From the NCBI RefSeq assembly GCF_002443295.1, contig NZ_BAOS01000013.1, positions 1-64,000 on the forward strand: DNA of 64,000 bases, in the 5' to 3' direction. Below the pieces are notes generated by a model that saw only the letters and a list, made by a program, of their open reading frames with translations, was not told the origin of the DNA and ran no database searches. Position 1 is the stretch's first letter; each line of letters starts with the position of its first letter. The position numbers were made by a program, and so were the translations under genes. Of the stretch, positions 5,787 to 50,899 are shown in pieces. This stretch comes from Candidatus Scalindua japonica (GTDB lineage Bacteria > Planctomycetota > Brocadiia > Brocadiales > Scalinduaceae).

Positions 5787-6201
5787 CTGTAAACTCCTGT
5801 ATTTATAGCGATCATTAAAAAAAATAATGTATTAAGAATATATTGTAAAATTTGCAAATATTTAATTCTATTATAATTACTACAACTTTAGTTCTCAAAT
5901 TCTAGCAAAATACTTTCAAATTGGCTACGATAATTTTTGCCAGAATTACTCAAAGTATTTCTATACTATAGCAATAATAATACCAATATTTTACTTTCGC
6001 GTACAAAAGTGCACTGCAACACATAACACATTGTAATATAAGCTGTTACACCATAAAGAAAATCATATAGAAACAATGGCCTTGAATACTTGTTGCGAAA
6101 AAAGCGTAAAAACTGCGGCCCTACACACAACTATTTACCACCTAAAGCGAAATAAATGCATGTATCGAAAAAAAAGAGTAGCCAAGCTTTACGGCACATA
6201 T
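5787..6201. other. 415-bp AT-rich intergenic region
   Basis: No ORF, hairpin or RNA gene is convincing here. It follows the 3' end of the permease gene and presumably contains the mlaA promoter. The DNA is strongly AT-rich near mlaA. Confidence 0.5.
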
Positions 6202-8769: not shown

Positions 8770-8800
8770 AACAGTTAAGTAGCTAAAGTAAGGTGAGAAA

Positions 8801-11625: not shown

Positions 11626-12400
11626 TCTTTACCCCATCCTTAACTTCTCCCATTTCGAGGGCGTAATTATAAAATGACTTAAGGCCACGAATTTCCTGCT
11701 CATCCAGATTATATTTAATCGACTCCTTGAGATACCAGAGACAACGCTCTTTTTTCATTCCCAGCCTGGCCGCTTCAACATCTGCGATTTCGTCTAAAGA
11801 CTTAATTCCACACTCTTTTGCATCAATAATAAGTTTGCTGAGTCCTTGTAATCCGGATCCGGATTTTGCTACCCATACTGCGTAAACAAAAGGTAGCCCC
11901 GTTAACTCCTTCCACTCCTGTCCCAAATCCAAGACAATAAAACCCTCTTCCCGTACATTCATAGCATCGTCTCCAATGACAAGAAAGGCATCCGCGTATT
12001 CATTATAAATTTTCTGTTTGTCTTCCAGTACAATGTATTCCGGCTTCAAAGAGTACTTCTTGCCGAGAATAACTTTTGTAAGAACACACGATGTCATAGA
12101 ATCTCTGTCCAGAGCAACAGTTCTGATTTTTTCAATTGAAGGCACTTTAATAAATAACTTCACACTTTCTACCAAACCATTTGAAGCGATGGCACTTCCC
12201 GGAATGATTTCATAACCGGTACTTCTAAAATATCCCACAGATGGCATTGAGATCAGGTCCAATTCATCATTTACAAGCATTTCCGGTAAAACCGACGGAA
12301 CACCATACACGATATCTATCTGGTCTGCTTTTTTTAGAAAACCATATATAAATGGTTTCGCATTCATATATGGGACAACACCAATCTTCAATTTGTCCAT
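11606..12400 (-). CDS. mqnA: Chorismate dehydratase
   Basis: MqnA removes water from chorismate to give 3-enolpyruvyl-benzoate, the first step of futalosine menaquinone synthesis. The 264-residue protein has the family opening KIGVVPYMNAKPFIYGF, the ELDLISMPSVGYF substrate-pocket motif and YADAFLVIGDDAM. It has a periplasmic-binding-protein-like fold but no signal peptide, as expected for a cytosolic enzyme. It overlaps mqnC by 20 bp. mqnB, mqnE and mqnD are not in this window. Confidence 0.92.
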   Translation of the reverse strand: MDKLKIGVVPYMNAKPFIYGFLKKADQIDIVYGVPSVLPEMLVNDELDLISMPSVGYFRSTGYEIIPGSAIASNGLVESVKLFIKVPSIEKIRTVALDRDSMTSCVLTKVILGKKYSLKPEYIVLEDKQKIYNEYADAFLVIGDDAMNVREEGFIVLDLGQEWKELTGLPFVYAVWVAKSGSGLQGLSKLIIDAKECGIKSLDEIADVEAARLGMKKERCLWYLKESIKYNLDEQEIRGLKSFYNYALEMGEVKDGVKIEFYNQ

Positions 12401-27631: not shown

Positions 27632-27859
27632 TTACTTAATTGGTATTATCTCAGCCCTTCGGTTTAATGCACGCCCTTCCGGAGTATCATTATCCGCAAT
27701 TGGCTGTGTATACCCAAGACCTATTGTCGTAATTCGAGACGGATCTATACCCTTACCAACCAGATAGTCCTTTATTGCCTGAGCCCTTTTGCTGGAAAGG
27801 TCCATATTGTATTTCATTGAACCGATATCGTCAGTATGCCCCTCGATTCTTACCTTCAA
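27632..27859 (-). CDS. OmpA-like C-terminal domain, piece 3 of a split gene
   Basis: The 75-residue fragment reads VRIEGHTDDIGSMKYNMDLS, RAQAIKDYLVGKGID and ALNRRAEI, the peptidoglycan-binding half of an OmpA domain. Its natural N-terminal half (VQFDYKKW and the helix after it) is in the preceding frame, which stops 13 bases after a run of seven A (27867-27873 on the + strand). Adding one A restores a continuous domain (ILKKNLGLKVRIEGHTDD). This is therefore not an independent gene. Confidence 0.75.
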   Translation of the reverse strand: MKVRIEGHTDDIGSMKYNMDLSSKRAQAIKDYLVGKGIDPSRITTIGLGYTQPIADNDTPEGRALNRRAEIIPIK

Positions 27860-28620
27860 CCCGAGATTTTTTTCAAAATATTTTCTATATTATCCAGGTT
27901 TGAATTAAACTGTTGTTTTACACCCCATTTTTTATAATCAAATTGCACCCCCTTGACCACCCAGCAACCTCTATCATCAACGATAGCACCTATCGGAGTA
28001 TTTTTACATTCATCACTATTATCATTAACCCCATCTCCATCACTGTCTATCTGACTAACTTTCTGGCATCCATATTGATCTACCACTACACCACTTGGCG
28101 TGCCTGGGCACTTATCAAATTCATCATACACTCCATCCCTGTCACTATCTTTCCGAATAATTTCAGGACATCCAGATTTATTAACCACCATGCCAACCGG
28201 CGTACCGGGACATTTATCAAACTCATCATACACCCCATCTCTGTCGCTATCTTTACGAATAATTTCAGGACATCCAGATTTATTAACCACCATGCCAACC
28301 GGCGTACCGGGACATTTATCAAACTCATCATACACCCCATCTCTGTCACTATCTTTCCGAGTAATTTCAGGACATCCAGATTTATCAACCACTACCCCAA
28401 CCGGCGTACCGGGGCATTTATCAAACTCATCAAACACCCCATCTCTGTCACTATCTGACCTTCTAACATTTCTGACTTTAGGACAACCATGCTTATCCAC
28501 CTCAATTCCGGCAGAAGTACCTGGACAGTTATCAATACTATCAAAAACACCATCTCCATCACTATCTAAATTACGGCCTTCGCCAGTTGTAAGAAATACC
28601 TGTTTTACAATATCAATCAT
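27856..28620 (-). CDS. Thrombospondin type-3 repeat segment, piece 2 of a split gene
   Basis: The 254 residues contain six calcium-binding TSP3-type repeats of about 34 residues, each like DSDRDGVYDEFDKCPGTPVG. The start of an OmpA domain (VQFDYKKW) follows, then an abrupt stop. The first residues continue, in frame, from an open stretch (ELASEIKCGFSASI) upstream of ATG 28620 that belongs to the VWA piece, so this ATG is not a real start. Middle repeats are nearly identical at DNA level. The repeats likely form a rigid, calcium-loaded spacer between VWA and peptidoglycan-binding domains in the periplasm. Confidence 0.75.
   Translation of the reverse strand: MIDIVKQVFLTTGEGRNLDSDGDGVFDSIDNCPGTSAGIEVDKHGCPKVRNVRRSDSDRDGVFDEFDKCPGTPVGVVVDKSGCPEITRKDSDRDGVYDEFDKCPGTPVGMVVNKSGCPEIIRKDSDRDGVYDEFDKCPGTPVGMVVNKSGCPEIIRKDSDRDGVYDEFDKCPGTPSGVVVDQYGCQKVSQIDSDGDGVNDNSDECKNTPIGAIVDDRGCWVVKGVQFDYKKWGVKQQFNSNLDNIENILKKISG
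28092..28500. repeat. 102-bp in-gene tandem repeats
   Basis: About four consecutive 102-bp units encode TSP3 repeats; the two central units differ at only a few bases. Each repeats the phrase ggacatccagatttattaac, with accggcgtaccgggacattt about 30 bases later. Such repeats can expand or contract by recombination. Confidence 0.8.
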
Positions 28621-28719
28621 ATCTTCTCTGGTTTCAGTACCATCAATAGATGCAGAAAAACCACATTTGATCTCACTGGCAAGTTCTTTCCATAAAAACC
28701 TTGCCCTCAGGGTTGTTTC

Positions 28720-29310
28720 CTACCCAAACCGTATAAAACATGTCCCTTTCCCATAACGGTTTTCCAAGGCCCTTGCCTTTCCACGAGGATCACCTTCCAG
28801 ATTCATACCATCACTTATAAAAATTACAGCACTATCACCTTGAACAGACCCCAGGGCAGCACTGACAGCTTTAATAGCGCGTCCTGCAGGGCTGTTACCT
28901 TCAGCAGAAAAACTCAGGCTATTCAAGCTTTGTTCCAAGCCGGATCTGGAGTAAGTAGTCGGCCCATATACAATCTCTGTCTGCCTCTTCAACTGATTGA
29001 TTCCACGACCAAATGTCATGAGAGACCCGTTGATATCCATTTCAGGCATAGTATTATTCATACGCTTTAGAAAGTCTATAGCTACTTTAAACTTTGGAAC
29101 TTCTCCTTCGTTGTTATACGGCATACTCATAGATGTTGAAGCATCAAGTATGATAAAAAAGTTGTCAATTTTCGGTACATATTCCCCCATTTGAAACGCT
29201 TCATCAAGATTATCACGGCGTGTTAAAAAATTTGGCTGAAATTGAAAACAACCTGTCAGTAACGAAACTAAAACTGTTAAAGAAAAGACAAATAAACGTT
29301 TTCTATTCAT
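28720..29310 (-). CDS. VWA-domain lipoprotein, piece 1 of a split gene
   Basis: From ATG 29310 (GAGG 6-7 bases upstream) the product begins with a lipoprotein signal ending LLTGC. It continues into a von Willebrand A domain: NFFIILDASTSMSMPY (MIDAS DxSxS), a central GSLMTFGRGI, and AVIFISDGMNLEG. The frame stops at TAG 28720-28722. In a shifted frame the expected continuation CFYTVWVGNNPEGKV is present between a T4 run (28735-28738) and a T5 run (28694-28698), after which the original frame resumes. The full protein would be about 559 residues: lipoprotein, VWA, TSP3, OmpA. Confidence 0.75.
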   Translation of the reverse strand: MNRKRLFVFSLTVLVSLLTGCFQFQPNFLTRRDNLDEAFQMGEYVPKIDNFFIILDASTSMSMPYNNEGEVPKFKVAIDFLKRMNNTMPEMDINGSLMTFGRGINQLKRQTEIVYGPTTYSRSGLEQSLNSLSFSAEGNSPAGRAIKAVSAALGSVQGDSAVIFISDGMNLEGDPRGKARALENRYGKGTCFIRFG

Positions 29311-29545
29311 AATTAACCTCAAAAAAATAATCCCTGACACTTCCGGATATTCAGATAAAGATAAAATATAAAGGGTGATTAATTATTGTGGCTTTTCCTT
29401 TATGTTAAAAAGTGTACCATCGAACATGTTTTAGAGGAACAAGCCAAAAGATTAAAGTGAAAGATAACTCATGCAATGTGAAAAATCAAGTTTAAAGAGA
29501 AACAACTGATGTTTCATACAAGCACAAGTATGTTTTACAGGTCTT

Positions 29546-35604: not shown

Positions 35605-37350
35605 ATGCGAGTTATAGTAGCAAAAACAGCAGGATTTTGTATGGGTGTACGTAAGGCAATGGACAGAGTATTGGATGCCTCTAATGAAAAGGGAGGCGAT
35701 GATGGCTCCGTCTATACGGAAGGGCCATTGATACATAATCCCCAGGTACTTGAAAAACTGGAGGAGAAAGGTATCAAAGCGCTTAACGAAAATACGGATT
35801 TATCAAAAAGTACTGTAGTTATCAGGGCCCATGGTATAACGCCCAGGAGAAGAGAGGAACTTGAAGCATCAGGCGCCAAGATCTGTGATGCAACCTGCCC
35901 TCGCGTACAACGGGTGCAATCAATCATTGAGGAGAATACGAAGCTGGGATATTCCACTATTATCGTGGGTGATGAAGGGCATGCCGAAGTGGTGGGGTTA
36001 CTTGGATATGCTGATGGAAACGGTTATGTTATCTCTTCTATTGAGGAAATTTCAGACCTGCCTGATTTAGAAAAAATTTGTATCGTTGCCCAGACTACTC
36101 AGGACATGAATACTTTTGCATTAATAGCGGAAAAGTTGAAACTTAGATACGGAAATAACAAAGTATTTGACACAATATGCAGCTCTACATCAAAACGCCA
36201 GGAAGAGGTAATCAACCTGAGCGAAGAAGTTGACGCAATGATTGTAGTTGGTGGAAGAGGTAGCGCAAATACAAATAGGTTGGTCCAAATTTCTGAAAAT
36301 AAAGGCACACCTACATTCCTTGTTGAGACTGAAAATGAATTGAATTTCAAGAAGCTTGAAAATTATGGAGTTATTGGCGTTACAGCCGGCGCTTCAACAC
36401 CTAACTGGCTACTCCAGAGAGTTGTTGATAAAGTACAGAATTATCAAGGCAAAAAAAACAGAAAAATACAATCAGTCAAGGAAAAAGCAATTACAATCTT
36501 AGTCGGCAGTTTCATGTATATCGGAATTGGAGCAACAAGTATCAGTTACTCAAGCTCCGTGCTGCTTGGTATAAACCCCAAGGTTAAATGCTGTACAATT
36601 GCAACTCTGTTTTTGTTTTCAATGTATGTTTTAAACTATTTTACTAACAAAGAGGCAGCCGCCCTGAGTGAGCCATCCAGATTCAAATTATACGAGAAAT
36701 ATCAAAGCATTTTCATGGTCCTCGGATTTATCGCAGCCATTTTATCTTTAGCTCTGGCATTTACGGTTAACATAGAGGCGTTCTTCTGTATCTTTTTTCT
36801 ATCTCTGTTTGGAATAGCGTACAGAGCTTCTATAATTCCCAATAAGCTTTCCAGCATTTTCAGATACCGAAGCCTGGCACAGATTCCCGGTTCGAAAGAA
36901 ATGTTTATAAGCATAGCATGGGCTGTGAGTACCGGTTTAATTCCTTTTCTGGAATCACCAGTTTCATCTGTGTCATCACTACCTGTTGTATTAGCATTTG
37001 TTTTCAGTATGGTTTTTATGAGAACAGTATTGCTTGATGTTAAGGACGTTCAAGGTGACAGAATAATTGGTAAGGAAACAATACCAATTGCAATAGGCAA
37101 GAATAAAACTAAGGCAATTTTAGTCATTTTATCAATATTGCTTACTATACTATTAATTATCAGCCCAATGATTGGTTGGACTTCAGAATTTTCCTATTAC
37201 CTCATACCATGTGTTGCGTATGCATGTGGATATTTGTATCTCTATCACAAGCGCATTGTAACCAGTGGGCTAGCCTGTGAAATTATTACCGATTTTAATT
37301 TTATCCTTGCGGGTATAATGGTAGTAATCTGGCGCCTTGTTGTAATTTAA
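35605..37350 (+). CDS. ispH: IspH (HMBPP reductase) fused to a UbiA-like membrane domain
   Basis: Residues 1-290 are IspH, the [4Fe-4S] enzyme that makes IPP and DMAPP at the end of the MEP pathway. All three cluster cysteines are present (C12 in FCMGVRKAM, C98 in DATCP, C192 in CSSTSKRQ), along with H76 (RAHG) and H126/E128 (GHAEV). Residues about 300-581 are eight or so hydrophobic helices ending in DVKDVQGDRIIGKETIPIAI, the second Asp-rich motif of UbiA prenyltransferases. The first motif appears degraded (NYFTNKEAAALSE). ATG 35605 is chosen because IspH begins MRVIVAKTAGFC; the frame upstream adds 41 unrelated residues. DUF502 follows after 29 bp. Confidence 0.9.
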   Translation: MRVIVAKTAGFCMGVRKAMDRVLDASNEKGGDDGSVYTEGPLIHNPQVLEKLEEKGIKALNENTDLSKSTVVIRAHGITPRRREELEASGAKICDATCPRVQRVQSIIEENTKLGYSTIIVGDEGHAEVVGLLGYADGNGYVISSIEEISDLPDLEKICIVAQTTQDMNTFALIAEKLKLRYGNNKVFDTICSSTSKRQEEVINLSEEVDAMIVVGGRGSANTNRLVQISENKGTPTFLVETENELNFKKLENYGVIGVTAGASTPNWLLQRVVDKVQNYQGKKNRKIQSVKEKAITILVGSFMYIGIGATSISYSSSVLLGINPKVKCCTIATLFLFSMYVLNYFTNKEAAALSEPSRFKLYEKYQSIFMVLGFIAAILSLALAFTVNIEAFFCIFFLSLFGIAYRASIIPNKLSSIFRYRSLAQIPGSKEMFISIAWAVSTGLIPFLESPVSSVSSLPVVLAFVFSMVFMRTVLLDVKDVQGDRIIGKETIPIAIGKNKTKAILVILSILLTILLIISPMIGWTSEFSYYLIPCVAYACGYLYLYHKRIVTSGLACEIITDFNFILAGIMVVIWRLVVI

Positions 37351-37379: not shown

Positions 37380-38066
37380 ATGACATCAAAAATGAAGTCA
37401 GGAAAACTTTACTCTGTCGGCTTTAAGAAAAACACCAGAAGGAAAATGATTGCAGGACTTCTTGTTGTTTTTCCTGTTTTTATTACATTTTATGTAATAA
37501 AGTTTTTATTTACCATGATCGGTGGAATCCTGTCCCCGGTAGTAGTGAAAGCTATCGGTGTTTTTGGATTCTCTCCAAATAGTAAAATTGATGAGTTTAT
37601 AATTATGTCAGTCGCGTTCGTACTCACATTTGTTTCACTTTATTTTATTGGTGTGGTAGCAACAAACTTTCTCGGAAAATTTATAATAAACTTTTTTGAA
37701 GCGATATTGAATAATGTACCCATTATTAAAAATGTATATACTTCATCAAAAAAACTGATCGAAATTATAAGCCTGCCAACAACAAAATCTTTTAAACGTG
37801 TAGTTATAGTTGAATATCCAAGGGTTGGAATGAAGGCATTTGCATTTGTTACCGGCAACTTGAAGACACAGGATGGATCAGAATTATCCAGTATATTTGT
37901 CCCAACAACACCAAACCCGACTTCGGGCTTTTTGATTTATCTTCCTGAACAAGATATAGAAGAAACTGACCTGAGCATTGAAGAGGGGATGAAATTGATT
38001 GTTTCGGGAGGGATATTAGTACCGAATCGAATGGAGACAAATACAGACAGACATACAAAGAAGTGA
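37380..38066 (+). CDS. DUF502 membrane protein
   Basis: The 228-residue protein has two membrane helices (about residues 22-46 and 72-98) and a cytoplasmic or periplasmic C-terminal domain. The DUF502 hallmarks are present: PIIKNVYTSSKKLIE, VVIVEYPRVGMKAFAFVTG, FVPTTPNPTSGFLIYLPEQD. The role in bacteria is unknown. It follows ispH by 29 bp, so it is likely co-transcribed, and converges with glgC (20 bp apart). Confidence 0.88.
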   Translation: MTSKMKSGKLYSVGFKKNTRRKMIAGLLVVFPVFITFYVIKFLFTMIGGILSPVVVKAIGVFGFSPNSKIDEFIIMSVAFVLTFVSLYFIGVVATNFLGKFIINFFEAILNNVPIIKNVYTSSKKLIEIISLPTTKSFKRVVIVEYPRVGMKAFAFVTGNLKTQDGSELSSIFVPTTPNPTSGFLIYLPEQDIEETDLSIEEGMKLIVSGGILVPNRMETNTDRHTKK

Positions 38067-38086: not shown

Positions 38087-39310
38087 CTAAATGAGAGGCA
38101 TTTCTTTGCGCACAACCACTATACCACTTTCAGTTACCGTAAAACTGTTAGAATCATTCTCTTTATCATAACCAATGCTCATATAGTCAGGTATGTCTAC
38201 AGACTTATCAATTATGGCTTTTCGTATCTTAACATGCTGCCCTATCCTGACACTCTCCATTATAATTGAATCGTAAATTTCAGAATTGGAACCGACTCTG
38301 ATATCAGGGGACAAAACACATCCTTCCACCTTTGCACCGCTTATTATGCATCCTCCGGAAACAATAGAATTTAGAATCATATTTTTAGGTTCATTTGGTA
38401 AATCTTTCTGATATACTGTTTTGACTGGTGGGTATTGTGCCTTATAAGTGCGAATTGGCCAATTTTTATCATAAATATTAAATTCCGGTGATACCTGAAC
38501 AAGGTCCATATTCGCCTTCCAGTAAGCGTCCAAGGTACCGATATCACGCCAGTAGCTTAAGCCACTGTTATTTTCGTCTGTAAATGGATATGCGTATACC
38601 CTTTTAGAATGTATCATTTCAGGTATAATGTTCTTCCCGAAATCATGATTTGTGTTTTGTTTGGCATCACCTATTATCGCTTTAACCAGGGTTCTGGTAT
38701 TAAATAAATAAATTCCCATAGAAGCAAATGTGACCTCCGGATTGTTTGGCGAAGGAATTGGTACTGAAGGTTTTTCATGAAATCCAACGATCCGGTTCTC
38801 TTCATTTGTCTGTATTATACCAAATCTTTTCCCTTCATCCAGAGGGACATCCATGCATGCTATAGTAAGATCTGCTCTCTTTTCATGGTGGAAGCGTACC
38901 ATATTTCTGTAATCCATTTTGTAAATATGATCACCGGAAAGTATCAAAACCAATTCCGGTTGCTCCTTTTCAAGTGTATATATGTTCTGGTAGACAGCGT
39001 CTGCAGTACCCTGATACCATTGATCACTGATCCTTTGTTGAGGAGGTATCTGTTCTATATATTCATCTAATTCATTATTAAAAATATTCCACCCAAGCCG
39101 CAAGTGCCTATCCAGTGAGAAGGATTTGTATTGTGTCAGAACTACTATTTTGCGCAATCCTGAATTGAGACAATTACTTAATGTAAAGTCTATTATTCTG
39201 TAAATACCTCCAAAAGGCACAGCCGGTTTTGCTCTGTCTTTTGTCAGTGGATAAAGCCTCTCCCCCTGTCCTCCTGCCAGAATAATAGTAAGCACATTAT
39301 TTAAAGACAT
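38087..39310 (-). CDS. glgC: Glucose-1-phosphate adenylyltransferase
   Basis: GlgC makes ADP-glucose, the committed step of bacterial glycogen synthesis. The 407-residue protein shows TIILAGGQGERLYPLT, AKPAVPFGGIYRIIDF, GTADAVYQNIYTLE, ILSGDHIYKMDY, FGIIQ, the FHEKP motif, GLSYWRDIGTLDAYWKANMD and a left-handed beta-helix C-terminal domain. It is last on a minus-strand run galT, kinase, regulator, glgC, 78 bp after the regulator. The other glycogen genes lie in the divergent cluster starting at 42902. Confidence 0.96.
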   Translation of the reverse strand: MSLNNVLTIILAGGQGERLYPLTKDRAKPAVPFGGIYRIIDFTLSNCLNSGLRKIVVLTQYKSFSLDRHLRLGWNIFNNELDEYIEQIPPQQRISDQWYQGTADAVYQNIYTLEKEQPELVLILSGDHIYKMDYRNMVRFHHEKRADLTIACMDVPLDEGKRFGIIQTNEENRIVGFHEKPSVPIPSPNNPEVTFASMGIYLFNTRTLVKAIIGDAKQNTNHDFGKNIIPEMIHSKRVYAYPFTDENNSGLSYWRDIGTLDAYWKANMDLVQVSPEFNIYDKNWPIRTYKAQYPPVKTVYQKDLPNEPKNMILNSIVSGGCIISGAKVEGCVLSPDIRVGSNSEIYDSIIMESVRIGQHVKIRKAIIDKSVDIPDYMSIGYDKENDSNSFTVTESGIVVVRKEMPLI

Positions 39311-39388
39311 ATTTTCACTCTTAAAAGTAATTAATTTGAAATAACTGATATTAAAGTTCGATACACCAGGAGCATCTGTTTATTATTT

Positions 39389-39757
39389 TCAAGAACCCTT
39401 TGCTTTCTTTGCCAAAACTTCTTTAACAGTTTTCTTTAGTTCTAAAAGATCTGAGGACTTAACTATATAAGCATCTGCAGCCCATGACATGAAATTATCT
39501 TTATAATTACTATAAGCAGTATTAATGACAACTGGAATTTCTCGATTTTTACTTAGGATCTTCCCCATTGTCTCAATGCCATCCATCTTAGGCATGTTAA
39601 TATCCATTATAATAATATCAGGCTGCTGCTCATGAACTTTCTCCATAGCTTCTTTACCATCAGAGGCGGTTACAACTTCATAACCTTCCAACATTAATTC
39701 CTGTTCATAAAGTAAGCGTTGGTTCTTATCATCTTCTACAACCAGGATAGTTGTCAT
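39389..39757 (-). CDS. Single-domain response regulator
   Basis: This is a 122-residue CheY-like receiver with no output domain. The acidic pocket E8-D9-D10 (VVEDD), the phospho-acceptor D52 (IIIMDINMPKMDG), T79 (INTAYS) and the conserved lysine in YIVKSSDL are present. AGGAG lies 9 bases upstream of ATG 39757. It starts 19 bp after the end of the histidine kinase and is surely its partner. The output must be by protein contact or onward phosphotransfer. It sits between the kinase and glgC. Confidence 0.9.
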   Translation of the reverse strand: MTTILVVEDDKNQRLLYEQELMLEGYEVVTASDGKEAMEKVHEQQPDIIIMDINMPKMDGIETMGKILSKNREIPVVINTAYSNYKDNFMSWAADAYIVKSSDLLELKKTVKEVLAKKAKGS

Positions 39758-39776
39758 CGTTATGAACTCCTTTCTG

Positions 39777-41687
39777 CTATTTTTTTGGCAACGTTAGTAC
39801 CATGGTTGTTCCTTTTCCGTGTTTGCTTATGGCATCTATTGTTCCACCATGGTCCTCAATAATTTTAAGGCTTACAGACAAACCCACACCGGTACCACTC
39901 TCTTTTGTCGTAAAGAATGGATCATAAATATTCTGTAATACACCCGATTGTATGCCTTTGCCGGTATCTCTAATATATATTTTTATTGATTTTTTTTCTG
40001 ATTCTATATTCACATCAAGTGCTCCACCATCAGGCATTGATTCTACCGCGTTCATGAGTATATTAAGAAAGACCTGTTTTATTTGCGCAGGATCAACAGG
40101 TATTTCAGGTATACCTGTTTCATATCTCTTCTGCAGCTTTATATGCTTTTCCTGGAAATAGTTCTCCAGTAGCATACACGTATTTTCCATTATTACGCAT
40201 ACTTGAGTATCAACCTTTTCCGGCTTAGATGGCTTGCTAAAATCTGTAATATTATTTAGTATTTTTTCTAAACGCTTTACTTCCTCTATGATAATGTCAA
40301 TGTTAGCTTTGATTTTAGAATTTGTAAAGGTAAAACGAGATAGCGTTTTTGCAAAACCTCCGATAGTAACCAGCGGATTTCTTATCTCATGAGCAACATA
40401 AGATGACATTGAACCAATAGCGGCAAGTTTTTCCGAGCGAATAAGTCTCTGCTGTGTTTCAGTAAGCTGATTAATTTTATCTTCCAGGCTTTTGTAGGTT
40501 TCAGCATTTTCAATTGCCAGTGATGCCTGATTGACAAACATTGTCAATGTATTAATACGATCCTCAGATATTGGCTCTGCAGTATAGGCATTATCTGCAA
40601 CTATAACGCCTATGGGCTCATTCTTTGCTATCAGAGGAACACAGACAAATTCATTTACTCCAAGGGCCTTTCTGAATTCATCTGAAACACGCGTATCTTT
40701 AGCGGCATCTTTAACTATTACAGGCTTCTTCTCTTTTGTACAGATTGTAACAACTTCATCTGCATCTGCAAGTGAGTACACCATTAGTTTTGTCATAGTA
40801 TTTAGAGGTGTGTCAATATTATGACTATAATCCAGGTTGTCAACTATATCTAATAGGGAATTATGACGACTTGACATCTCTTTCCAAATACGTGTAGCCT
40901 CTTCTGTGGAAGATGGCCCAATAGCTAATTTCCCATTCAAGACATTAAGTTCTTTATTAATCAAAAACAACATTGCTCTATTAAACCCAAATGAGTAATC
41001 TGCAGTTATGCATGTTAAGATCAAGTGAAGTAATTTATCGAGATGAAGTGTTCCCTGGGTTACTTCACCAAACTGTTGTAAGAGTAAAAGCCTATGTACC
41101 AATTTCTCGCTTTCAGTCACATCTACGGTTAAGAGCAGGATATTTTCAACTTCGCCGTCCTTACCTGCTATAGGGATGGCAATATGTTGAATGCACATCC
41201 TCTTTTTGGTTTTTGTTGTTATCCATGATTCAATTATATGACTCTCTTTCCCCTTCCTCACCTGTGTTGCGGGACACTTATCCGTTCCGACAACATTACA
41301 ATGATAAATACCTGAACAATGACTACCAACAGGTGACTCTTCCAGGTTCAACCAATCATTTAACGTGTCATTTGCCCAAATTATTTTTGAATCCTTATCA
41401 ATAAGACATAATCCTGCCCCTATGACTTCCATTATGTTATTGAATATTTCTCTCTCCTCCTGTATCTGCTTCTCCAGTATCTTTGATTCTTTATTCTCTT
41501 TATTTTTTACAGAGAGGTTTGCCGTCTCAACCTTTGCGTTCTTTAGTTGAGACTCAAGATTTTCACACATCTCTTCAAAGGACCCTAATAAATCGTTATC
41601 AAGTACCATGTCCTTAGACTCATTGAGTAACTTTTTGATCTTATTTACCGTCTCTCCAGGTCCAGAGAATAATAGTTTCTTTTTCAT
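39777..41687 (-). CDS. Cytosolic PAS-GAF histidine kinase
   Basis: The 636-residue kinase has no membrane helix. Order: N-terminal coiled coil (1-85), PAS domain (about 85-195) containing a cysteine cluster (HCSGIYHCNVVGTDKCPATQ), GAF domain (about 215-390), HisKA with the phospho-acceptor in YVAHEIRNPLVTIGG (about 428), and HATPase with FLNILMNAVESM, DTGKGI, FFTTKESGTGVGLSV. The PAS cysteines suggest redox, metal or Fe-S sensing (inference). Its start overlaps the galT stop by 4 bp, and the regulator gene follows by 19 bp, placing the pair inside a sugar-nucleotide operon. The ligand is unknown. Confidence 0.88.
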   Translation of the reverse strand: MKKKLLFSGPGETVNKIKKLLNESKDMVLDNDLLGSFEEMCENLESQLKNAKVETANLSVKNKENKESKILEKQIQEEREIFNNIMEVIGAGLCLIDKDSKIIWANDTLNDWLNLEESPVGSHCSGIYHCNVVGTDKCPATQVRKGKESHIIESWITTKTKKRMCIQHIAIPIAGKDGEVENILLLTVDVTESEKLVHRLLLLQQFGEVTQGTLHLDKLLHLILTCITADYSFGFNRAMLFLINKELNVLNGKLAIGPSSTEEATRIWKEMSSRHNSLLDIVDNLDYSHNIDTPLNTMTKLMVYSLADADEVVTICTKEKKPVIVKDAAKDTRVSDEFRKALGVNEFVCVPLIAKNEPIGVIVADNAYTAEPISEDRINTLTMFVNQASLAIENAETYKSLEDKINQLTETQQRLIRSEKLAAIGSMSSYVAHEIRNPLVTIGGFAKTLSRFTFTNSKIKANIDIIIEEVKRLEKILNNITDFSKPSKPEKVDTQVCVIMENTCMLLENYFQEKHIKLQKRYETGIPEIPVDPAQIKQVFLNILMNAVESMPDGGALDVNIESEKKSIKIYIRDTGKGIQSGVLQNIYDPFFTTKESGTGVGLSVSLKIIEDHGGTIDAISKHGKGTTMVLTLPKK

Positions 41688-42676
41688 TGTTTTCTCAACA
41701 ATTCAGCAGCTTCCTCAGGAAGCGTTGGATTAATATAAAACCCTGTTCCCCATTCAAACCCAGCAATGTTTGTAAGTCTTGGTATTATCTCTATATGCCA
41801 ATGAAAAAATTCTGATTCGGTTACATTGAATGGTGCTGAATGAATTATATAATTATATGGCGGAAGGTCTAAAGCTGTCTCTAGCCTGCCAAGCACACCC
41901 TTTAAGACATTTGCAAGTTCATCTAATTCAAATTCCTGCAAGTTTTCAAAATGGCTTTTGTGATTTTTAGGAAGTATCCATATCTCAAAAGGAAATCTGG
42001 AAGCAAAAGGAGCAAAGGCTACAAAATTATCTGTCAAAAAGACGATTCTCCTGTCTGTATCTATTTCCTGGTCTATCATGTCGCAGAAGAGACATCTTTC
42101 TCTCTGTTGGTAAAATATTCTGGCATTTTCCATCTCATTTGCTACCAACTGTGGGACAATCGGTGTAACAATCAGTTGTGAATGAGTATGCTCAAGCGAA
42201 GCGCCTGCAGAAGCTCCGACATTTTTGAATAAAAGTCCGTAAACAAATCTTTTGTCGTTTTTTAAATCAACAAGACGATCTCTATAACACAATAAAACCT
42301 CTTTTACATTTCCATTTTCAAGCGATGTCAAAGACTGAATATGCCTTGGACTTTCTATAATAACTTCATGAGCACCGATACCACTCATCATATCATAGAT
42401 ACCTTCTACACACTTATTTTCTTCTCCTTCTATCTGAAGAGCGGGAAACTTATTTGGAACAACCCTTACCCTCCAACCACCGGTGTCTGGCATTGCTCCG
42501 TTATCTCGATACGCCAGTATCTCCGGTGGAGTCTTGTCCTCATTGCCTTCACAAAATGGGCAGAAACTGCTTTTAATTATTTGTTGGTTAGTCTTAAAAT
42601 CTGATGGCCGTGTAGCTCTTTCAGTCGCCACGATTATCCAACATCCGGAAACAGGCTCCCTTCTTAATTCAGGCAT
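41684..42676 (-). CDS. galT: Galactose-1-phosphate uridylyltransferase
   Basis: GalT exchanges UMP between UDP-glucose and galactose-1-phosphate. The 330-residue protein has the zinc cysteines CPFCEGN and CLFCDMI and the HIT-type active motif as LEHTHSQLIVTP (HxHxQ with the covalent His in the middle), plus FHWHIEIIPRL near the end. It belongs to the ADP-sugar/GalT-like clade found next to glycogen genes, so another sugar nucleotide may be the true substrate. AGGAG lies 8 bases upstream of ATG 42676. It is the first gene of the minus-strand run to glgC and overlaps the kinase by 4 bp. Confidence 0.9.
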   Translation of the reverse strand: MPELRREPVSGCWIIVATERATRPSDFKTNQQIIKSSFCPFCEGNEDKTPPEILAYRDNGAMPDTGGWRVRVVPNKFPALQIEGEENKCVEGIYDMMSGIGAHEVIIESPRHIQSLTSLENGNVKEVLLCYRDRLVDLKNDKRFVYGLLFKNVGASAGASLEHTHSQLIVTPIVPQLVANEMENARIFYQQRERCLFCDMIDQEIDTDRRIVFLTDNFVAFAPFASRFPFEIWILPKNHKSHFENLQEFELDELANVLKGVLGRLETALDLPPYNYIIHSAPFNVTESEFFHWHIEIIPRLTNIAGFEWGTGFYINPTLPEEAAELLRKQ

Positions 42677-42901
42677 TTATTACTCCTAAACTAATTGAAA
42701 TTCTATTCTATTTTGAACCAGTATATTTTGCCAGAAAGCATCTATTTTGTTAATTTAATAGCAGTTTGTAACATACGCATTGTTGCCTTACATATTTTAT
42801 TGTTAAGCCAAAAGATATCGACAAGTAGTATAATATATTTTAAGCGGATTTTAAAGAAACAATTGTTTTCCAGATTTTAATATTCAGGTCGTATACGATT
42901 T

Positions 42902-44890
42902 ATGTATAATGCTAATCTCAATGTATCCTACTTATTCGGGTTAAGCATAACAATGAAAGATGGAATCAACAGAATTACAGGCAATGTACACAATATAGAT
43001 CATATCACGGAACATGATATATATCTTCTAAAGGAAGGAAGCCATTACAGATTATATGACAAACTGGGCGCACATATCATTAACAACGGTAAAGATAACG
43101 GAGCAGCCTTTGCGGTATGGGCCCCTAACGCTGAACGTGTCTCAGTTACAGGTGATTTTAATGGATGGAACAGCGAGTCTCATGCACTGTATGCAAGGCA
43201 GGACGGTTCGGGAATATGGGAGGGTTTTATTTCTGGCATATCGGGAGGAGACATTTACAAATACCATATACATTCCAAATATAATAACTTCCGAGCAGAA
43301 AAAGGTGATCCGTTTGCGTTCTATTGGGAACAGCCGCCTAAAACAGCTTCAGTAGTTTGGAATCTGCATTATGAATGGAACGATAGTGAGTGGATAACAA
43401 ACAGGAACCAACACAATTCTCTTAATTCTCCTTTCTCTGTATATGAAGTACATCTGGGTTCATGGAGACGGGTAATGAAAAGAGAAAATGAATTTCTTAC
43501 CTATAGAGAAATAGCGCATGAACTTGCAGATTATGTAAAGGAGATGGAGTTTACCCATGTAGAGCTGTTACCTGTTACAGAGCATCCCTTCTACGGTTCG
43601 TGGGGTTATCAGACTACCGGATATTTTGCACCTACGAGCAGGTATGGGAGTCCTCAGGATTTTATGTACCTGGTTGATTATCTTCATCAAAATGGGATTG
43701 GTGTTATACTGGATTGGGTACCGTCACACTTCCCATCCGATGGGCATGGACTTGCCTATTTTGACGGCACACATCTCTATGAGCACGCTGACCCGAAAAT
43801 GGGCTTTCATCCTGAATGGAAAAGCTATATCTTTAACTATAGCAGAAATGAGGTACGCGCGTTCCTTATAAGCAGTGCCATATTCTGGATAGAAAAGTAT
43901 CATATTGATGCTCTGAGGGTAGATGCCGTTGCATCTATGCTCTACCTTGACTATGCACGTAAGGAAGGAGAGTGGATACCAAATAAATACGGAGGACATG
44001 AGAATCTGGATGCTATAAATTTAATAAAGAGATTAAACGAAGCTGTTTATATCTCTAATCCTGATGTTCAAATGATAGCAGAAGAATCAACTTCATGGCC
44101 AATGGTGTCAAGACCAACAAGTATCGGAGGCCTAGGCTTCGGGATGAAATGGAATATGGGATGGATGCACGATATTCTCAAATACTTTTCAAAAGATCCT
44201 GTTTATAGAAAGTCTCATCATAAAGAACTTACCTTCAGCATATGGTACGCATTTTCAGAAAACTTCCTGCTCCCTCTTTCCCATGACGAAGTAGTCCATG
44301 GAAAGGGATCACTTATAGGCAAGATGCCCGGTGATGAATGGCAGAGGCATGCAAATCTCAGGATTTTATTTGGATATATGTTTGCACACCCCGGAAAGAA
44401 ACTACTATTCATGGGAGGAGAATTCGCGCAATTGAAGGAGTGGGACCATGACGAAAGTCTTGAATGGTCTAACTTGCAGTACCCACTCCACAAAGGTATT
44501 CAAAACTGGGTTAAAGACTTGAATCGTTTTTACAAGAAGGAAACGGCGTTGTATGGGTCTGATTTTGCGGAAGACGGCTTTGAATGGATAGACTTTAATG
44601 ATTGTGAACATAGTATAATAAGTTTTATCAGAAAAGACAAGGATACTGACGACATAGTTCTCTTAGTTTGCAATGCCACCCCTGTGCCAAGGCATAACTA
44701 CAATGTAGGAGTACCAAGTGGGGGTTTCTGGAAGGAAACCCTAAATAGCGATGCGGAAATGTATGGAGGAAGTGGTTGTGGTAATTTTGGTGGAATTCAA
44801 GCGGTAAAAAAAGCTGCACACGGAAGGGCATATTCACTCTCCCTGACCTTACCACCTTTAGGCATTTTATTTTTTAAAAACTCGAACTGA
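42902..44890 (+). CDS. glgB: 1,4-alpha-glucan branching enzyme
   Basis: GlgB creates alpha-1,6 branches in glycogen. The 662-residue protein has a CBM48 domain ([20 protein letters not shown], about residues 67-145) and a GH13 barrel with [32 protein letters not shown], the nucleophile in [12 protein letters not shown] (about 339), the acid in [10 protein letters not shown] (about 392) and [14 protein letters not shown]. The start is uncertain: ATG 42902 has AGGT upstream, and ATG 42953 would trim 17 residues. The GH57 gene follows after 2 bp. Confidence 0.95.
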
Positions 44891-44892
44891 TT

Positions 44893-47310
44893 ATGAATAA
44901 ACATATCTGCATACACGGCCACTTCTATCAACCACCAAGGGAGAACCCATGGCTTGAAGAGATCGAGTTCCAGGATTCGGCCTATCCATACCATGACTGG
45001 AATGAAAAGATTACGGCTGAGTGCTATGCCCCTAATACTGCTGCACGTATTCTTGATTCAGAGAATAGAATAATAGAGATAACAAATATATACGCTAAAA
45101 TAAGTTTTAACTTTGGACCAACGTTATTATCATGGATGGAAAAATATAAGCCGGAGGTTTACCAGGCGATTCTCGATGCTGACAAGTTGAGTATGGTAAA
45201 TTTCTCCGGACACGGTTCCGCAATAGCGCAGGCATATAACCATATGATAATGCCACTTGCAAATAAAAGGGACAAATATACACAGGTAAAATGGGGAATA
45301 AAAGATTTTGAAAAGAGATTTAACAGGTACCCGGAAGGGATATGGCTTCCTGAAACTGCCGTCGATATAGATACACTTGAAGTACTGTCAAGTCTGGGAA
45401 TAAAATTTACGGTCCTTTCTCAGAGGCAGGCTGAAAGAGTAAAGAGAACTGGTGAAACAGAGAGTTGGATTGATGCCACCGAAGAAAAAATTGATTCCAC
45501 TTTGAATTACCTTTGCCATCTACCTTCAGGACAATCTATCAATATCTTTTTCTATAATGGCCAAATCGCCCAGGAAGTATCTTTCGGCAATTTATTGAAA
45601 GACGGAGAAGGGTTTGCTGAAAGATTGCTTTCAGCATTTGATCATGACAATGATCATCCACAAATTGTTCATATCGCAACTGATGGGGAAACGTTCGGGC
45701 ATCACCACAGATTTGGAGATATGGCGCTTTCCTATTGCCTGCATCATATTGAATCCGGCAATAGAGCACGGATCACTAACTATGGCGAGTATCTTGACAA
45801 GCATCCCCCGGCCCACATAGTTGAGATTATTAACAACTCATCCTGGAGCTGTGTACATGGTGTAGAACGGTGGAGAGACAATTGCGGCTGTAACTCTGGT
45901 GCAAATCCGGAGTGGGATCAAGAGTGGAGAAAACCATTAAGAGAGGCAATGGACTGGTTGAGGGACAGGATAGTACCTGTTTTTAGGAGTGAAGCGTCTA
46001 AATATTTTGAAGATCCATGGCATGTAAGAAATGAATATATTGAAATCATTCTTGACAGGTCCCAGAACAACATTGGATCCTTCCTGAAAAAATATGCGGT
46101 CAGAGAGCTTTCCAGGCATGAAATGATAAGGGCACTGAAGATCCTTGAGATGCAAAGGAACGCCATGTTAATGTATACCAGCTGTGGCTGGTTCTTCGAT
46201 GATCTCTCTGGCATTGAAACAATACAAATAATGCAATACGCATTAATAACAATGCAATACGCAGAAGATCTGCAGAAATTGTCACTTAATCCTGAATATT
46301 TGAAGTTTCTACAGAATGTGCAAAACAACACATCAGACAACACCCTTGAAATCTATAAAATGTTTGTAGAGTCAGCCAGAAGCGACCTGCTGAGAGTGGG
46401 AATTCACTATTGCATATCCTCTCTCTTCGAAGAATATTCAGAAGATACAAAAATATTCTGTTATACGTCAAAGGGTGAGAAGTATAATAAAATCGGGGTG
46501 GAAAAACTAAGACTGGCTACAGGTAAAGTAATAATCACATCAGATATCACTCTGGATGCAAAAAACCTCTGTTTTGCGGCATTATATCTTGGAGACCAGA
46601 ATATTAATGGAGGTGTGAAGGAATTTACAGGAGAGCATGAGTTTTCAATAATGCAGGATGAAATAAAAGATGCATTTGAAGATAGTATCACAGAAACTAT
46701 AAGGTGTATGGATAAATATTTTAAAGACAACATCTACTCAATATTGCATCTCTTTAAAGATGAACAGAGAAAAATTCTGGATCAGTTAACTGAACTGACA
46801 TATGATGAGATTGACAGCTCTTACCGCCGGATATATAAGAACAATTATGCAACAATGAATACCTTTCATGGTTTACAGATAAAGCTTCCAAAGCCTTTTT
46901 TTGTAGCAACAGAATATATACTGAACGAGGACATCAAACAACTGTTTAATGCAGAACCACTGGATGTCGATAGACTTGGAAAGCTAATAAACGAAGCAGA
47001 AAAGTGGAATATTACAATTGATACAACAACACTCAGTTATGTAGTGAGTTCATGGTTAAATAGAATAATGAATAAAATAAATAAGCAGCCAGCTGATTTA
47101 CAACTGTTTGATATGATTGACAAAACCTTAGAGATAGTAAAACCATTATCTTTATCACTTGATCTCTGGAAGGTCCAGAACAATTGCTTTTCTCTATGGA
47201 ATGACTGCTGCGGCATGATAAAGGACAAAGCGGAAAAAGGAGATAGTTTTGCCAATAGCTGGATAGAAAACTTTCTCAAACTGGGGTCTTATTTGAATGT
47301 AAAAGTATAG
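44893..47310 (+). CDS. GH57-family DUF3536 glucan enzyme
   Basis: This 805-residue protein begins with the GH57 signature HICIHGHFYQPPRENPW, then FSGHGSAIAQAYNHMIMP, GIWLPETAVDIDTLE (catalytic Glu region) and IATDGETFGHHHRFGD (catalytic Asp region). The C-terminal half (about 400-805) is the DUF3536 extension. GH57 members include alpha-amylases, amylopullulanases, 4-alpha-glucanotransferases and branching enzymes; the DUF3536 type is found beside glycogen genes but its activity is not certain. It starts 2 bp after glgB, so the pair is translated together. Confidence 0.88.
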   Translation: MNKHICIHGHFYQPPRENPWLEEIEFQDSAYPYHDWNEKITAECYAPNTAARILDSENRIIEITNIYAKISFNFGPTLLSWMEKYKPEVYQAILDADKLSMVNFSGHGSAIAQAYNHMIMPLANKRDKYTQVKWGIKDFEKRFNRYPEGIWLPETAVDIDTLEVLSSLGIKFTVLSQRQAERVKRTGETESWIDATEEKIDSTLNYLCHLPSGQSINIFFYNGQIAQEVSFGNLLKDGEGFAERLLSAFDHDNDHPQIVHIATDGETFGHHHRFGDMALSYCLHHIESGNRARITNYGEYLDKHPPAHIVEIINNSSWSCVHGVERWRDNCGCNSGANPEWDQEWRKPLREAMDWLRDRIVPVFRSEASKYFEDPWHVRNEYIEIILDRSQNNIGSFLKKYAVRELSRHEMIRALKILEMQRNAMLMYTSCGWFFDDLSGIETIQIMQYALITMQYAEDLQKLSLNPEYLKFLQNVQNNTSDNTLEIYKMFVESARSDLLRVGIHYCISSLFEEYSEDTKIFCYTSKGEKYNKIGVEKLRLATGKVIITSDITLDAKNLCFAALYLGDQNINGGVKEFTGEHEFSIMQDEIKDAFEDSITETIRCMDKYFKDNIYSILHLFKDEQRKILDQLTELTYDEIDSSYRRIYKNNYATMNTFHGLQIKLPKPFFVATEYILNEDIKQLFNAEPLDVDRLGKLINEAEKWNITIDTTTLSYVVSSWLNRIMNKINKQPADLQLFDMIDKTLEIVKPLSLSLDLWKVQNNCFSLWNDCCGMIKDKAEKGDSFANSWIENFLKLGSYLNVKV

Positions 47311-47398
47311 TATCTATTCACCTCAAAGCCGTAAAGAGCGCAAATTTACAGGAAATATTCTATATAACGTCTGAAATATACACAAGCAAGGATGACCC

Positions 47399-47453
47399 CT
47401 CTCTTTCGAGATGACTCCAAATGGAATCCTCTCAAAAGGGAGGTTGGTGATGC
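47399..47453. repeat. Imperfect inverted repeat between GH57 and malQ
   Basis: CCTCTCTTT (near 47399) and AAAGGGAGG (near 47445) pair with one mismatch around a 30-40 base spacer. It lies in a 163-bp gap between two same-strand genes and may be a repetitive palindrome or an attenuating hairpin. Confidence 0.35.
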
Positions 47454-47473
47454 TATAGGCTAAAGAGAAAAAC

Positions 47474-48973
47474 GTGAAAAAAAGAGGAAGTGGAATACTT
47501 CTCCATATTACATCACTACCATCACCTTACGGCATTGGAGATTTTGGAAGAGAGGCTTACCGGTTTGCAGACCTCCTTGCGGAGAGTAATCAAAGTTTCT
47601 GGCAGATACTTCCTTTAAACCAGACATCTGTTGTCTATGATAATTCTCCCTATAGTAGTGTTTCAGCATATGCCGGGAATACTATCCTGATAAGCCCTGA
47701 CATAATGGTTGATGATGGATTTCTTTTGAAATCAGACATAGAAAACCATCCATCATTTCCCATGGAAAGTGTTGATTATAGCGCTGTTTTAAAGTATAAA
47801 AAAGAAATTTTCAGTATTGCTTTTGAGAAAAATAGAAGTCGTTTAGCTGAACACCATGAATTTAATAAATTTTGCAATGAAAATCTCAGCTGGCTGAAAG
47901 ATTATAGTCTCTTTGTCTCCATAAAAAAACATTTTAACAGTATTGATTGGAGCAAATGGCCTGAAAATCTCAGGGATAGAAAAAAGAAAGAACTTAAGCA
48001 ATGGGAAGAAAAATTACAGGAAAATATATTGAGAGAACATTTTCTTCAATATTTATTTTTCAAGCAGTGGCACTCTCTTAAAGATTATTGCGAAAGTATG
48101 GGTTTACAAATAATTGGAGACCTCCCTATTTACGTCAATTATGACAGTGCAGATGTATGGGCAAACCCGGAAATTTTCAAATTGAATAATGAAAAAAAAC
48201 CTGTTTATGTTGCCGGTGTTCCACCGGATTACTTCAGCGAAACAGGACAACTGTGGGGACATCCTGTTTATGATTGGGCTGTTCTTAAGAAAACCGGATA
48301 CTCATGGTGGATTAATCGAATAAAACACAATCTCAGATCTTTCCATATGTTTCGGCTAGACCACTTTAGAGGGTTTGTCGGTTACTGGGAAATTCCCGAA
48401 GGTGAAGAGTTTGCGACTAACGGACAATGGCAGGAAGCACCTGCCGAGGACTTTTTCAATACTCTTCTCAAGCATTTTGATAGTCTTCCTATTATTGCTG
48501 AAGACCTTGGTGTTATTACACCGGATGTAAAGGATATTATAAGACAATTTGGATTCCCTGGAATGAAGGTGCTGCTTTTTGCCTTTGGAGAAGACCTTCC
48601 CTCTAATCCTTATGCACCGCACAATTATACAAAAAACTGTGTTGCTTACACAGGAACACACGATAACAACACTGTTAAGGGCTGGTTTAAAAGTGAAACC
48701 AGTGCTGAAGAGAAAAAAAGAATTATTGATTATATTGGTCATGAAGTTTCAGAAGATCAAATACACTGGGAACTTATAAAACTTGTTATGAGTTCCGTCG
48801 CAAATATGGTTATAATACCAATGCAGGATATTATAGGACTTGAAGAAGATTCCAGAACAAATCTTCCTGCAAGTTCCAACGGAAACTGGAGATGGAGGTT
48901 TGTACCTGAAAGCTTATCTCCTTTAATAACAAAAAAATTGTCAGAAATGACAATTATTTATGGAAGAGGATAA
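47474..48973 (+). CDS. malQ: 4-alpha-glucanotransferase (amylomaltase)
   Basis: MalQ transfers maltosyl units between glucans and processes short chains left by the phosphorylase. The 499-residue GH77 protein has RGSGILLHITSLPSPYGIGD, WQILPLNQTS, IIGDLPIYVNYDSADVW, FRLDHFRGFVGYWEIPEGE (catalytic Asp), IIAEDLGVITPDV (Glu) and YTGTHDNNTVKGW (Asp). It starts at GTG 47474, where the family-typical MKKRGSG begins. The glgP gene follows after 57 bp. Confidence 0.95.
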   Translation: MKKRGSGILLHITSLPSPYGIGDFGREAYRFADLLAESNQSFWQILPLNQTSVVYDNSPYSSVSAYAGNTILISPDIMVDDGFLLKSDIENHPSFPMESVDYSAVLKYKKEIFSIAFEKNRSRLAEHHEFNKFCNENLSWLKDYSLFVSIKKHFNSIDWSKWPENLRDRKKKELKQWEEKLQENILREHFLQYLFFKQWHSLKDYCESMGLQIIGDLPIYVNYDSADVWANPEIFKLNNEKKPVYVAGVPPDYFSETGQLWGHPVYDWAVLKKTGYSWWINRIKHNLRSFHMFRLDHFRGFVGYWEIPEGEEFATNGQWQEAPAEDFFNTLLKHFDSLPIIAEDLGVITPDVKDIIRQFGFPGMKVLLFAFGEDLPSNPYAPHNYTKNCVAYTGTHDNNTVKGWFKSETSAEEKKRIIDYIGHEVSEDQIHWELIKLVMSSVANMVIIPMQDIIGLEEDSRTNLPASSNGNWRWRFVPESLSPLITKKLSEMTIIYGRG

Positions 48974-49030
48974 TTTGATTGTAGATTTCTTGCGTCGAAA
49001 TCGCAAAAAATTAGTAACTGAAGGGAATAA

Positions 49031-50746
49031 ATGAAAATGTTAATAACAGAAGAACACACAAATGGATCTAAAATTGCCTATTTCTCTATGGAAATTGGAC
49101 TTAGAGATGAGATACCCACATTCAGTGGTGGTTTGGGAATACTTGCCGGTGACACTATTAAATCAGGTGCCGATTTAAATCTCCCTCTCGTTGCAGTTAC
49201 ATTAATATACCACAAAGGGTATTTTAAACAGGATATAGATGATCAGGGACGACAGATAGAGTTGCCTGCACAGTGGGAACCATCAGAAATCATGCACACT
49301 GTACCGGAAAAGACCACTGTCATAATTGAAGGCAGGACCGTTTATATACAGGCATGGGTCTATTTCGTTAAAAGCCCCAAAGGAGGTGAAGTCCCTGTTC
49401 TATTTCTTGATACTAATTTACAGGAAAATAGTGAAGAAGACAGATCATTAACCGATTATCTCTATGGAGGTGATGACAACTACAGGATTAAACAGGAAGT
49501 GGTACTTGGGATTGGCGGAGTCAAGATATTAAAGATTCTTGGATTTCAAATCAAAAAGTATCATATGAACGAAGGACACGCGGCATTCTTAACACTTGAA
49601 CTTCTGCATCAATTAAAAAATAATCTAAATGATGTCTGGGACGAGTCTTACATATGGGACTTTGAAGCGGTTAAAGAATTGTGTGTATTTACGACACACA
49701 CACCGGTCGAAGCAGGACATGATAAATTCTCTTACGATCTCTATAGAAACGTAATCGGTGACTATTTTCCGGAGAATGTCATACATGACCTTGCCGGAAA
49801 TGATCACCTCAATATGACACTTCTTGCTTTAAATCTGAGTAATGACGTAAACGGAGTTGCCAAAAAACACGGTGAAGTTTCACAGAACATGTTTCCGGGT
49901 TATAAAATTAACTCAATAACAAATGGTGTTCACTCTTACACATGGACATGCGACAGCTTTAAAAAACTGTTTGATAAACATATACCAGGCTGGGCAAACG
50001 AACCGGAGTTATTTGTAAGAACTGATTTGATCCCTCCGGATGAGATATGGAATGCGCATTCCGAAGCCAAGAAAATACTCATTGACTATGTAAACTCTAC
50101 CAATAATTTGAAAATGGATCATGAGACACTGACAATCGGGTTTGCAAGAAGATTTGCCACATACAAGAGGGCGTCCCTGTTATTTAATGACATTGAAAGA
50201 CTTGAGGGAATTGCGTCCGGTAAAATCCAGGTTATTTTCGCCGGAAAGGCACATCCAAAAGATGAAGGCGGCAAAAAACTTATAGAGGATATCTTTGCAT
50301 ATTCAGAAAATCTAAAAGGGAAGATAAAGATTGCCTTTGTCAATAACTATAATATGGAAACTGCCATGAAAATAGTTTCAGGTGTAGATGTCTGGTTGAA
50401 TAACCCAATCAGGCCCCTTGAGGCATCGGGAACAAGCGGTATGAAGGCTGCACATAATGGAGTCCTGAACTTCAGCGTTCTTGACGGATGGTGGATTGAA
50501 GGCCACATAGAAGGAGATACAGGTTGGTCTATCGGCCCTGAATCAACAGAAACTGTACCTGATGATAATGCGAACAAGATAGACACAGACGATCTTTATA
50601 ACAAACTTGAACAAATTATTATCCCAACTTTCTATCAGAACAGAGATAAATGGGTTAAAATGATGAAAAGCGCGATTGGTAAAAATGCCTACTTCTTCAA
50701 CACCCATAGGATGATGCTGAGATACGTCACAGAAGCATATATATAG
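49031..50746 (+). CDS. glgP: Alpha-glucan phosphorylase (short GT35 type)
   Basis: GlgP releases glucose-1-phosphate from glycogen with PLP and phosphate. The 571-residue protein is of the short alpha-glucan phosphorylase class and lacks the first 100-plus residues of E. coli-type enzymes. It shows AYFSMEIGLRDEIPTFSGGL, YHMNEGHAAFLTLE, FTTHTPVEAGHDKF, GFARRFATYKRASLLF, VIFAGKAHPKDEGGK, and the PLP-lysine motif ASGTSGMKAAHNGVLN. The absence of the N-terminal regulatory region suggests no allosteric AMP-type control. Confidence 0.93.
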   Translation: MKMLITEEHTNGSKIAYFSMEIGLRDEIPTFSGGLGILAGDTIKSGADLNLPLVAVTLIYHKGYFKQDIDDQGRQIELPAQWEPSEIMHTVPEKTTVIIEGRTVYIQAWVYFVKSPKGGEVPVLFLDTNLQENSEEDRSLTDYLYGGDDNYRIKQEVVLGIGGVKILKILGFQIKKYHMNEGHAAFLTLELLHQLKNNLNDVWDESYIWDFEAVKELCVFTTHTPVEAGHDKFSYDLYRNVIGDYFPENVIHDLAGNDHLNMTLLALNLSNDVNGVAKKHGEVSQNMFPGYKINSITNGVHSYTWTCDSFKKLFDKHIPGWANEPELFVRTDLIPPDEIWNAHSEAKKILIDYVNSTNNLKMDHETLTIGFARRFATYKRASLLFNDIERLEGIASGKIQVIFAGKAHPKDEGGKKLIEDIFAYSENLKGKIKIAFVNNYNMETAMKIVSGVDVWLNNPIRPLEASGTSGMKAAHNGVLNFSVLDGWWIEGHIEGDTGWSIGPESTETVPDDNANKIDTDDLYNKLEQIIIPTFYQNRDKWVKMMKSAIGKNAYFFNTHRMMLRYVTEAYI

Positions 50747-50816
50747 TAGTTAACTTTACCGCAACTCACTGTCCAAATGGCTTTTCGGGTAGATAATGAG
50801 GAACTAAACCTGTCAT

Positions 50817-50864
50817 GAGGTGAGGATATCTCACCTCTCGTTCCCAAGCTCCCAATTGGGAACG
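50817..50864. repeat. Two adjacent short palindromes upstream of glgA
   Basis: GAGGTGAG/CTCACCTC (50817-50824 and 50830-50837) is followed by CGTTCCCAA/TTGGGAACG (50839-50847 and 50856-50864). They lie in the 153-bp gap between glgP and glgA and look like repetitive extragenic palindromes or leader hairpins. Confidence 0.55.
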
Positions 50865-50899
50865 ACAATGAGACAAAACTTTGCTTTGATAGAAGAATA

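Follow-up and report, generated by a model that had tools for sequence, protein, structure and literature searches.

The window, a stretch of 64,000 nucleotides of Candidatus Scalindua japonica DNA (contig NZ_BAOS01000013.1), carries on its forward strand a gene in which a complete IspH is joined to a membrane domain of the UbiA fold. The earlier note on this DNA had described an open frame passing from one into the other, and this is what is found: one uninterrupted reading frame of 581 residues, followed after 29 bp by a gene for a DUF502 membrane protein (PF04367, E 1.7e-29). The features at the locus are as follows.

35605..37350, plus strand: fusion gene, ATG at 35605, stop codon ending at 37350, 581 residues
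35605..36447, plus strand: IspH (LytB) domain, 4-hydroxy-3-methylbut-2-enyl diphosphate reductase, residues 1–281 (PF02401, 3dnf, active-site residues)
35638..35640, plus strand: codon of cluster cysteine Cys12, invariant in 54/54 fusions
35896..35898, plus strand: codon of cluster cysteine Cys98, invariant in 54/54 fusions
36178..36180, plus strand: codon of cluster cysteine Cys192, invariant in 54/54 fusions
36448..36474, plus strand: short basic linker, residues 282–290 (pLDDT below 50 at residues 286–292 of the full-length model)
36475..37347, plus strand: UbiA-fold membrane domain, residues 291–581, nine helices of membrane-spanning length (PF01040, AlphaFold2, Foldseek)
36634..36660, plus strand: first Asp-rich motif, degraded, residues 344–352, NYFTNKEAA where canonical UbiA proteins, by alignment, have NxxxDxxxD
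37036..37059, plus strand: second Asp-rich motif, DVKDVQGD, residues 478–485 (Asp conserved across fusions)
37380..38066, plus strand: DUF502 membrane protein

For the IspH half, Pfam PF02401 (LYTB) covers residues 3–277 with an E-value of 8e-91 (304 bits against a cut-off of 24.5), the TIGR00216 profile scores 280 bits against a curated cut-off of 187.85, and the domain matches Aquifex aeolicus IspH (3dnf) with an E-value of 1.8e-62. None of the 54 planctomycete fusions examined differs at C12, C98, C192, H44, H76, H126, E128, T165, S220, N222 or S264, and with the full set of cluster and active-site residues present alongside the Pfam match, the description of this half as a complete IspH stands. 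The fusion is the only ispH gene in the genome, where ispG is also found, so that the MEP route passes through the fusion protein. Its intact active site and single copy suggest that it is the only HMBPP reductase of the cell, making IPP and DMAPP.

The membrane half is likewise recognised by its Pfam family: PF01040 (UbiA) matches residues 371–547 with an E-value of 2e-13 and 50.4–52.7 bits, so that both domains lie above the curated cut-offs (34.2 bits for PF01040). An AlphaFold2 model of the C-terminal domain, built from 34 sequences, has nine long helices and a pTM of 0.80. In Foldseek its best matches are AfUbiA and ApUbiA, with E-values of about 2e-4 for AfUbiA (4tq3 and 4tq4) and TM scores of 0.68 (query) and 0.74 (target) against ApUbiA (4od4). 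A profile search of PDB sequences with the same domain did not recover UbiA; fold comparison alone did. The UbiA-like assignment of the earlier note is thereby confirmed, and the possibility that the C-terminal 290 or so residues lack a UbiA fold is ruled out. A full-length model forms both folds, connected by a short flexible linker, but with a pTM of only 0.62 it gives no reliable placement of the two domains relative to each other.

The architecture is general in the anammox order. In the Brocadiales, uninterrupted fusions with 53–83% identity occur in dozens of independent assemblies, among them Scalindua, Brocadia, Kuenenia, Jettenia, Loosdrechtia and Anammoxibacter, named close relatives that are anammox planctomycetes or their kin. 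A sample of the phylum included 33 Brocadiales genomes; a match was present in 31, in every case a full-length fusion, and absent from two. Among 39 close relatives, 35 gave a match, with one copy split within the UbiA domain and two cut by contig ends. The split copy is that of Ca. Scalindua rubra (L106; also L061), whose gene is divided into frames of 435 and 192 residues, likely by an assembly indel; an apparently unfused UbiA gene in genome G134 proved to be a fusion interrupted by contig ends. That the join in Ca. Scalindua japonica might be a frameshift, a misassembly or an artefact of annotation is therefore vanishingly improbable: nothing at 35605–37350 points that way, the split Ca. 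Scalindua rubra copy being the nearest to a hint of it, and the same uninterrupted gene recurs in dozens of independent assemblies, single-contig genomes included. A frameshift or misassembly at the junction itself is ruled out by these many intact relatives.

Beyond the Brocadiales, fusions are carried by nine other families of Planctomycetota (f6, f14, f16, f17, f28, f37, f61, f75 and f60, the last spread over two contigs), mostly with 33–39% identity. A scan of genome contigs returned fusions from Brocadiales and other Planctomycetota only, and none was found on plasmids, phages or viral contigs. The suggestion that the fusion may be characteristic of this lineage thus stands in that every Brocadiales copy found is fused, but not as a claim of exclusivity, given the nine further families and the sulfate reducers discussed below. 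In most other Planctomycetota IspH stands alone. A tree built from the IspH domain by a quick method groups the fused forms together and needs four changes of state; it may still fit a single origin of the fusion with later loss of the UbiA domain in some lineages. The lineages with stand-alone IspH inside the fused cluster have no UbiA domain of the fusion's family elsewhere in their genomes. Since the unfused form is the usual one in the phylum and the membrane domain is missing from several lineages nested among fused ones, it could be supposed that this domain is an inert anchor, merely keeping IspH at the membrane, close to an electron donor or to a complex that makes lipids. Loss of the first Asp motif would also fit, but we consider such an anchor unlikely in view of the conservation described below.

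The earlier note had observed that the second Asp-rich motif is kept and the first degraded, and both alignments and counts over the 54 fusions bear this out. When UbiA proteins from the same genome and from other Planctomycetota are aligned with the fusions, the canonical NRLVDAKYD falls opposite NYFTNKEAA; a comparison of one alignment with another gives this match a probability of 96% and an E-value of 4e-9, single-sequence hhalign being too weak. In the first motif the Asn is present in 51/54 fusions, the first Asp in 6/54 and the second, equivalent to AfUbiA D76, in none, so that no fusion has both; the first position is Asp in those six and Glu or Asn in others. The three other UbiA proteins of the genome all have Asp there. 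In the second motif the last Asp (D485) is found in 54/54 fusions and the preceding Asp in 50/54. In AfUbiA the diphosphate is held by a Mg whose ligands include N68 and D72, and N68A, D72A, R22A or K146A each abolish GPP binding, whereas D198A and D202A are milder, weakening it 45- and 21-fold (PMC4106721). Inspection by eye of helix 1 in the fusions, made on sequence and not on structure, revealed no evident arginine standing for R22. Taken with the AfUbiA mutants, the loss of the first motif indicates that the canonical Mg-diphosphate binding mode has probably been lost, and the UbiA domain of the planctomycete fusions probably does not work as a Mg-dependent prenyltransferase of the canonical kind.

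Other polar positions have been retained. R473, Y539 and D563 are each present in 53/54 fusions and K431 in 52/54, E491 is nearly invariant, and these residues persist in fusion domains that are only 22–29% identical to the UbiA domain of 35605–37350. Between close species dN/dS for the UbiA domain is about 0.01–0.18, mostly somewhat above that of the IspH domain and far below 1, although some species pairs are near saturation at synonymous sites. The near-invariant polar residues and the low dN/dS together argue that the domain is not in decay, nor obviously just a passive anchor. An inert anchor would need none of K431, R473, D485, E491, Y539 and D563, nor does it sit well with purifying selection on the membrane half; the earlier proposal of an anchor that has lost activity is accordingly incomplete.

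The same observations can be read in favour of an active bifunctional enzyme, in which IspH would raise the local concentration of IPP and DMAPP for a working UbiA transferase with a non-standard metal site. The second Asp motif and the basic residues are nearly invariant, the domain is under strong purifying selection, the UbiA fold is present and both domains are of isoprenoid-enzyme type, and a proposal of this kind was made for sulfate-reducer fusions (Rao et al., 2015; PMC4746011). Against it, the first motif is lost in 54/54 fusions and the equivalent D72A change in AfUbiA abolishes GPP binding (PMC4106721). In addition, IspH yields C5 units, whereas quinone-type UbiA enzymes use long chains from separate synthases, of which the genome has two, and the menaquinone side chain is covered by a separate MqnP-like enzyme. 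We know of no unassigned prenylated product in the anammox and other planctomycete carriers of the fusion. We regard a bifunctional enzyme as somewhat unlikely, and the channelling of IPP and DMAPP put forward in the earlier note as possible but not favoured.

The genome encodes two polyprenyl synthases and, besides the fusion, three UbiA genes, one of them MqnP-like; a role for the fusion's UbiA domain as the menaquinone prenyltransferase of the genome is ruled out by this separate gene. Within the window, at 10519–12400 on the minus strand, an mqnC-like gene (radical SAM, CofH/MqnC C-terminal region) adjoins an mqnA-like one, both belonging to the futalosine route to menaquinone. In the single-contig Brocadiales genome G026 the UbiA genes found are the fusion and one strong match only. 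Genome G028 (L023), rated 99% complete, has the fusion and one weak UbiA match (PF01040) only, with no strong MqnP-like match among its PF01040 matches.

Of 25 Brocadiales neighbourhoods, 24 have the DUF502 gene beside the fusion, as has none of those from other Planctomycetota; it is a probable operon partner. As the sole constant neighbour, and in Brocadiales alone, it is uninformative on the role of the fusion; a LarA-like gene (by eye) is also seen near the fusion in part of the Brocadiales. Elsewhere in the window, an apparent run of glycogen metabolism genes (glgC, glgB, 4-alpha-glucanotransferase, phosphorylase and glgA) occupies 38087–52357, and at 4947–9421 (minus strand) MlaA/VacJ-like, RND (HpnN-like) and MlaC-like genes are grouped in a manner that resembles a lipid or hopanoid transport set, both by eye. 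Two adjacent frames at 27856–29340 (minus strand) resemble pieces of one VWA/type-3-repeat lipoprotein, possibly through frameshift or truncation; a similar frame is intact elsewhere in the genome, adjoining a UbiA gene (L004:2272-3567).

The explanation that we put forward, with about even chances of being right, is an IspH docked to the membrane, with a UbiA domain that is probably no canonical transferase but keeps a putative ligand site under selection. The UbiA-fold domain would dock IspH to the membrane. The end of helix 2 bears the remnant of the first motif, and the second motif follows helix 6; each is an even number of crossings from the N-terminus, which would place IspH on the membrane face to which the UbiA cavity opens. 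The planctomycete fusion lineage has lost one half of the Mg/diphosphate site, and canonical catalysis probably with it, leaving a strongly selected half-site formed by N344, K431, R473, D481, D485, E491, Y539 and D563. This half-site may most plausibly bind a phosphate-bearing ligand and, likewise speculatively, membrane docking or the state of the ligand might position or regulate IspH. Several observations pull the other way: with Asp at the first position in six fusions and Glu or Asn in others, a degenerate site could bind Mg; conservation of the second motif is compatible with residual catalysis; and both DXXXD motifs are reported in the sulfate-reducer fusions (PMC4746011), so the class may be catalytic. 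A more specific proposal, that the domain is a converted prenyltransferase which no longer transfers but uses the surviving half-site to bind a prenyl diphosphate or another phosphorylated lipid and so controls the flux through the cell's sole IspH or its location, seems to us quite doubtful; if it were true, the state of the membrane lipids would feed back on the terminal MEP reaction. The generality of the fusion among anammox bacteria, and loss of the first motif with the rest of the domain under selection, sharpen the channelling idea into the question of whether the membrane domain acts as an enzyme, as a sensor or as an anchor.

The product of 35605–37350 belongs to a published class. 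Rao et al. (2015; Chem Sci 6:6813, PMC4746011) described 47 IspH-UbiA fusions, all in sulfate-reducing anaerobes, reported ‘two DXXXD repeats’ in their UbiA domain, and proposed a Rosetta stone protein in which the UbiA domain localises IspH to the membrane and uses its products; the full fusion protein could not be expressed. In the searchable open-access papers we found no later work on the class since 2015, bar a mention in a reference list. Two points look new: the general occurrence of the fusion among anammox bacteria, and the loss of the first Asp motif from all 54 planctomycete fusions examined. Like the protein described here, those of Rao et al. have a UbiA-type nine-helix domain C-terminal to a three-cysteine IspH, come from anaerobic hosts, and are accompanied by a separate UbiA/MenA-type enzyme in the same genome. 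They differ in belonging to sulfate reducers and, by the published description, in having both DXXXD motifs, whereas the fusions of the Planctomycetota, anammox bacteria included, keep the second only. Among characterised relatives of the two halves, Aquifex aeolicus IspH (3dnf) is 39% identical over the IspH domain by structural alignment and has the same cluster ligands, but is free-standing and soluble, whereas the IspH here is joined to a membrane domain. AfUbiA and ApUbiA (4tq3, 4tq4, 4od4 and 4od5) share the fold of the fusion domain, which keeps the equivalents of N68, D198 and D202; they are free-standing, however, and the fusion domain lacks the equivalents of D72 and D76 and has no convincing counterpart of R22 in helix 1. 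The MqnP-type menaquinone prenyltransferase of the same genome (L002) belongs to the same superfamily, with very remote sequence similarity, but is a free-standing protein that keeps the NxxxDxxxD motif which the fusion domain has lost.
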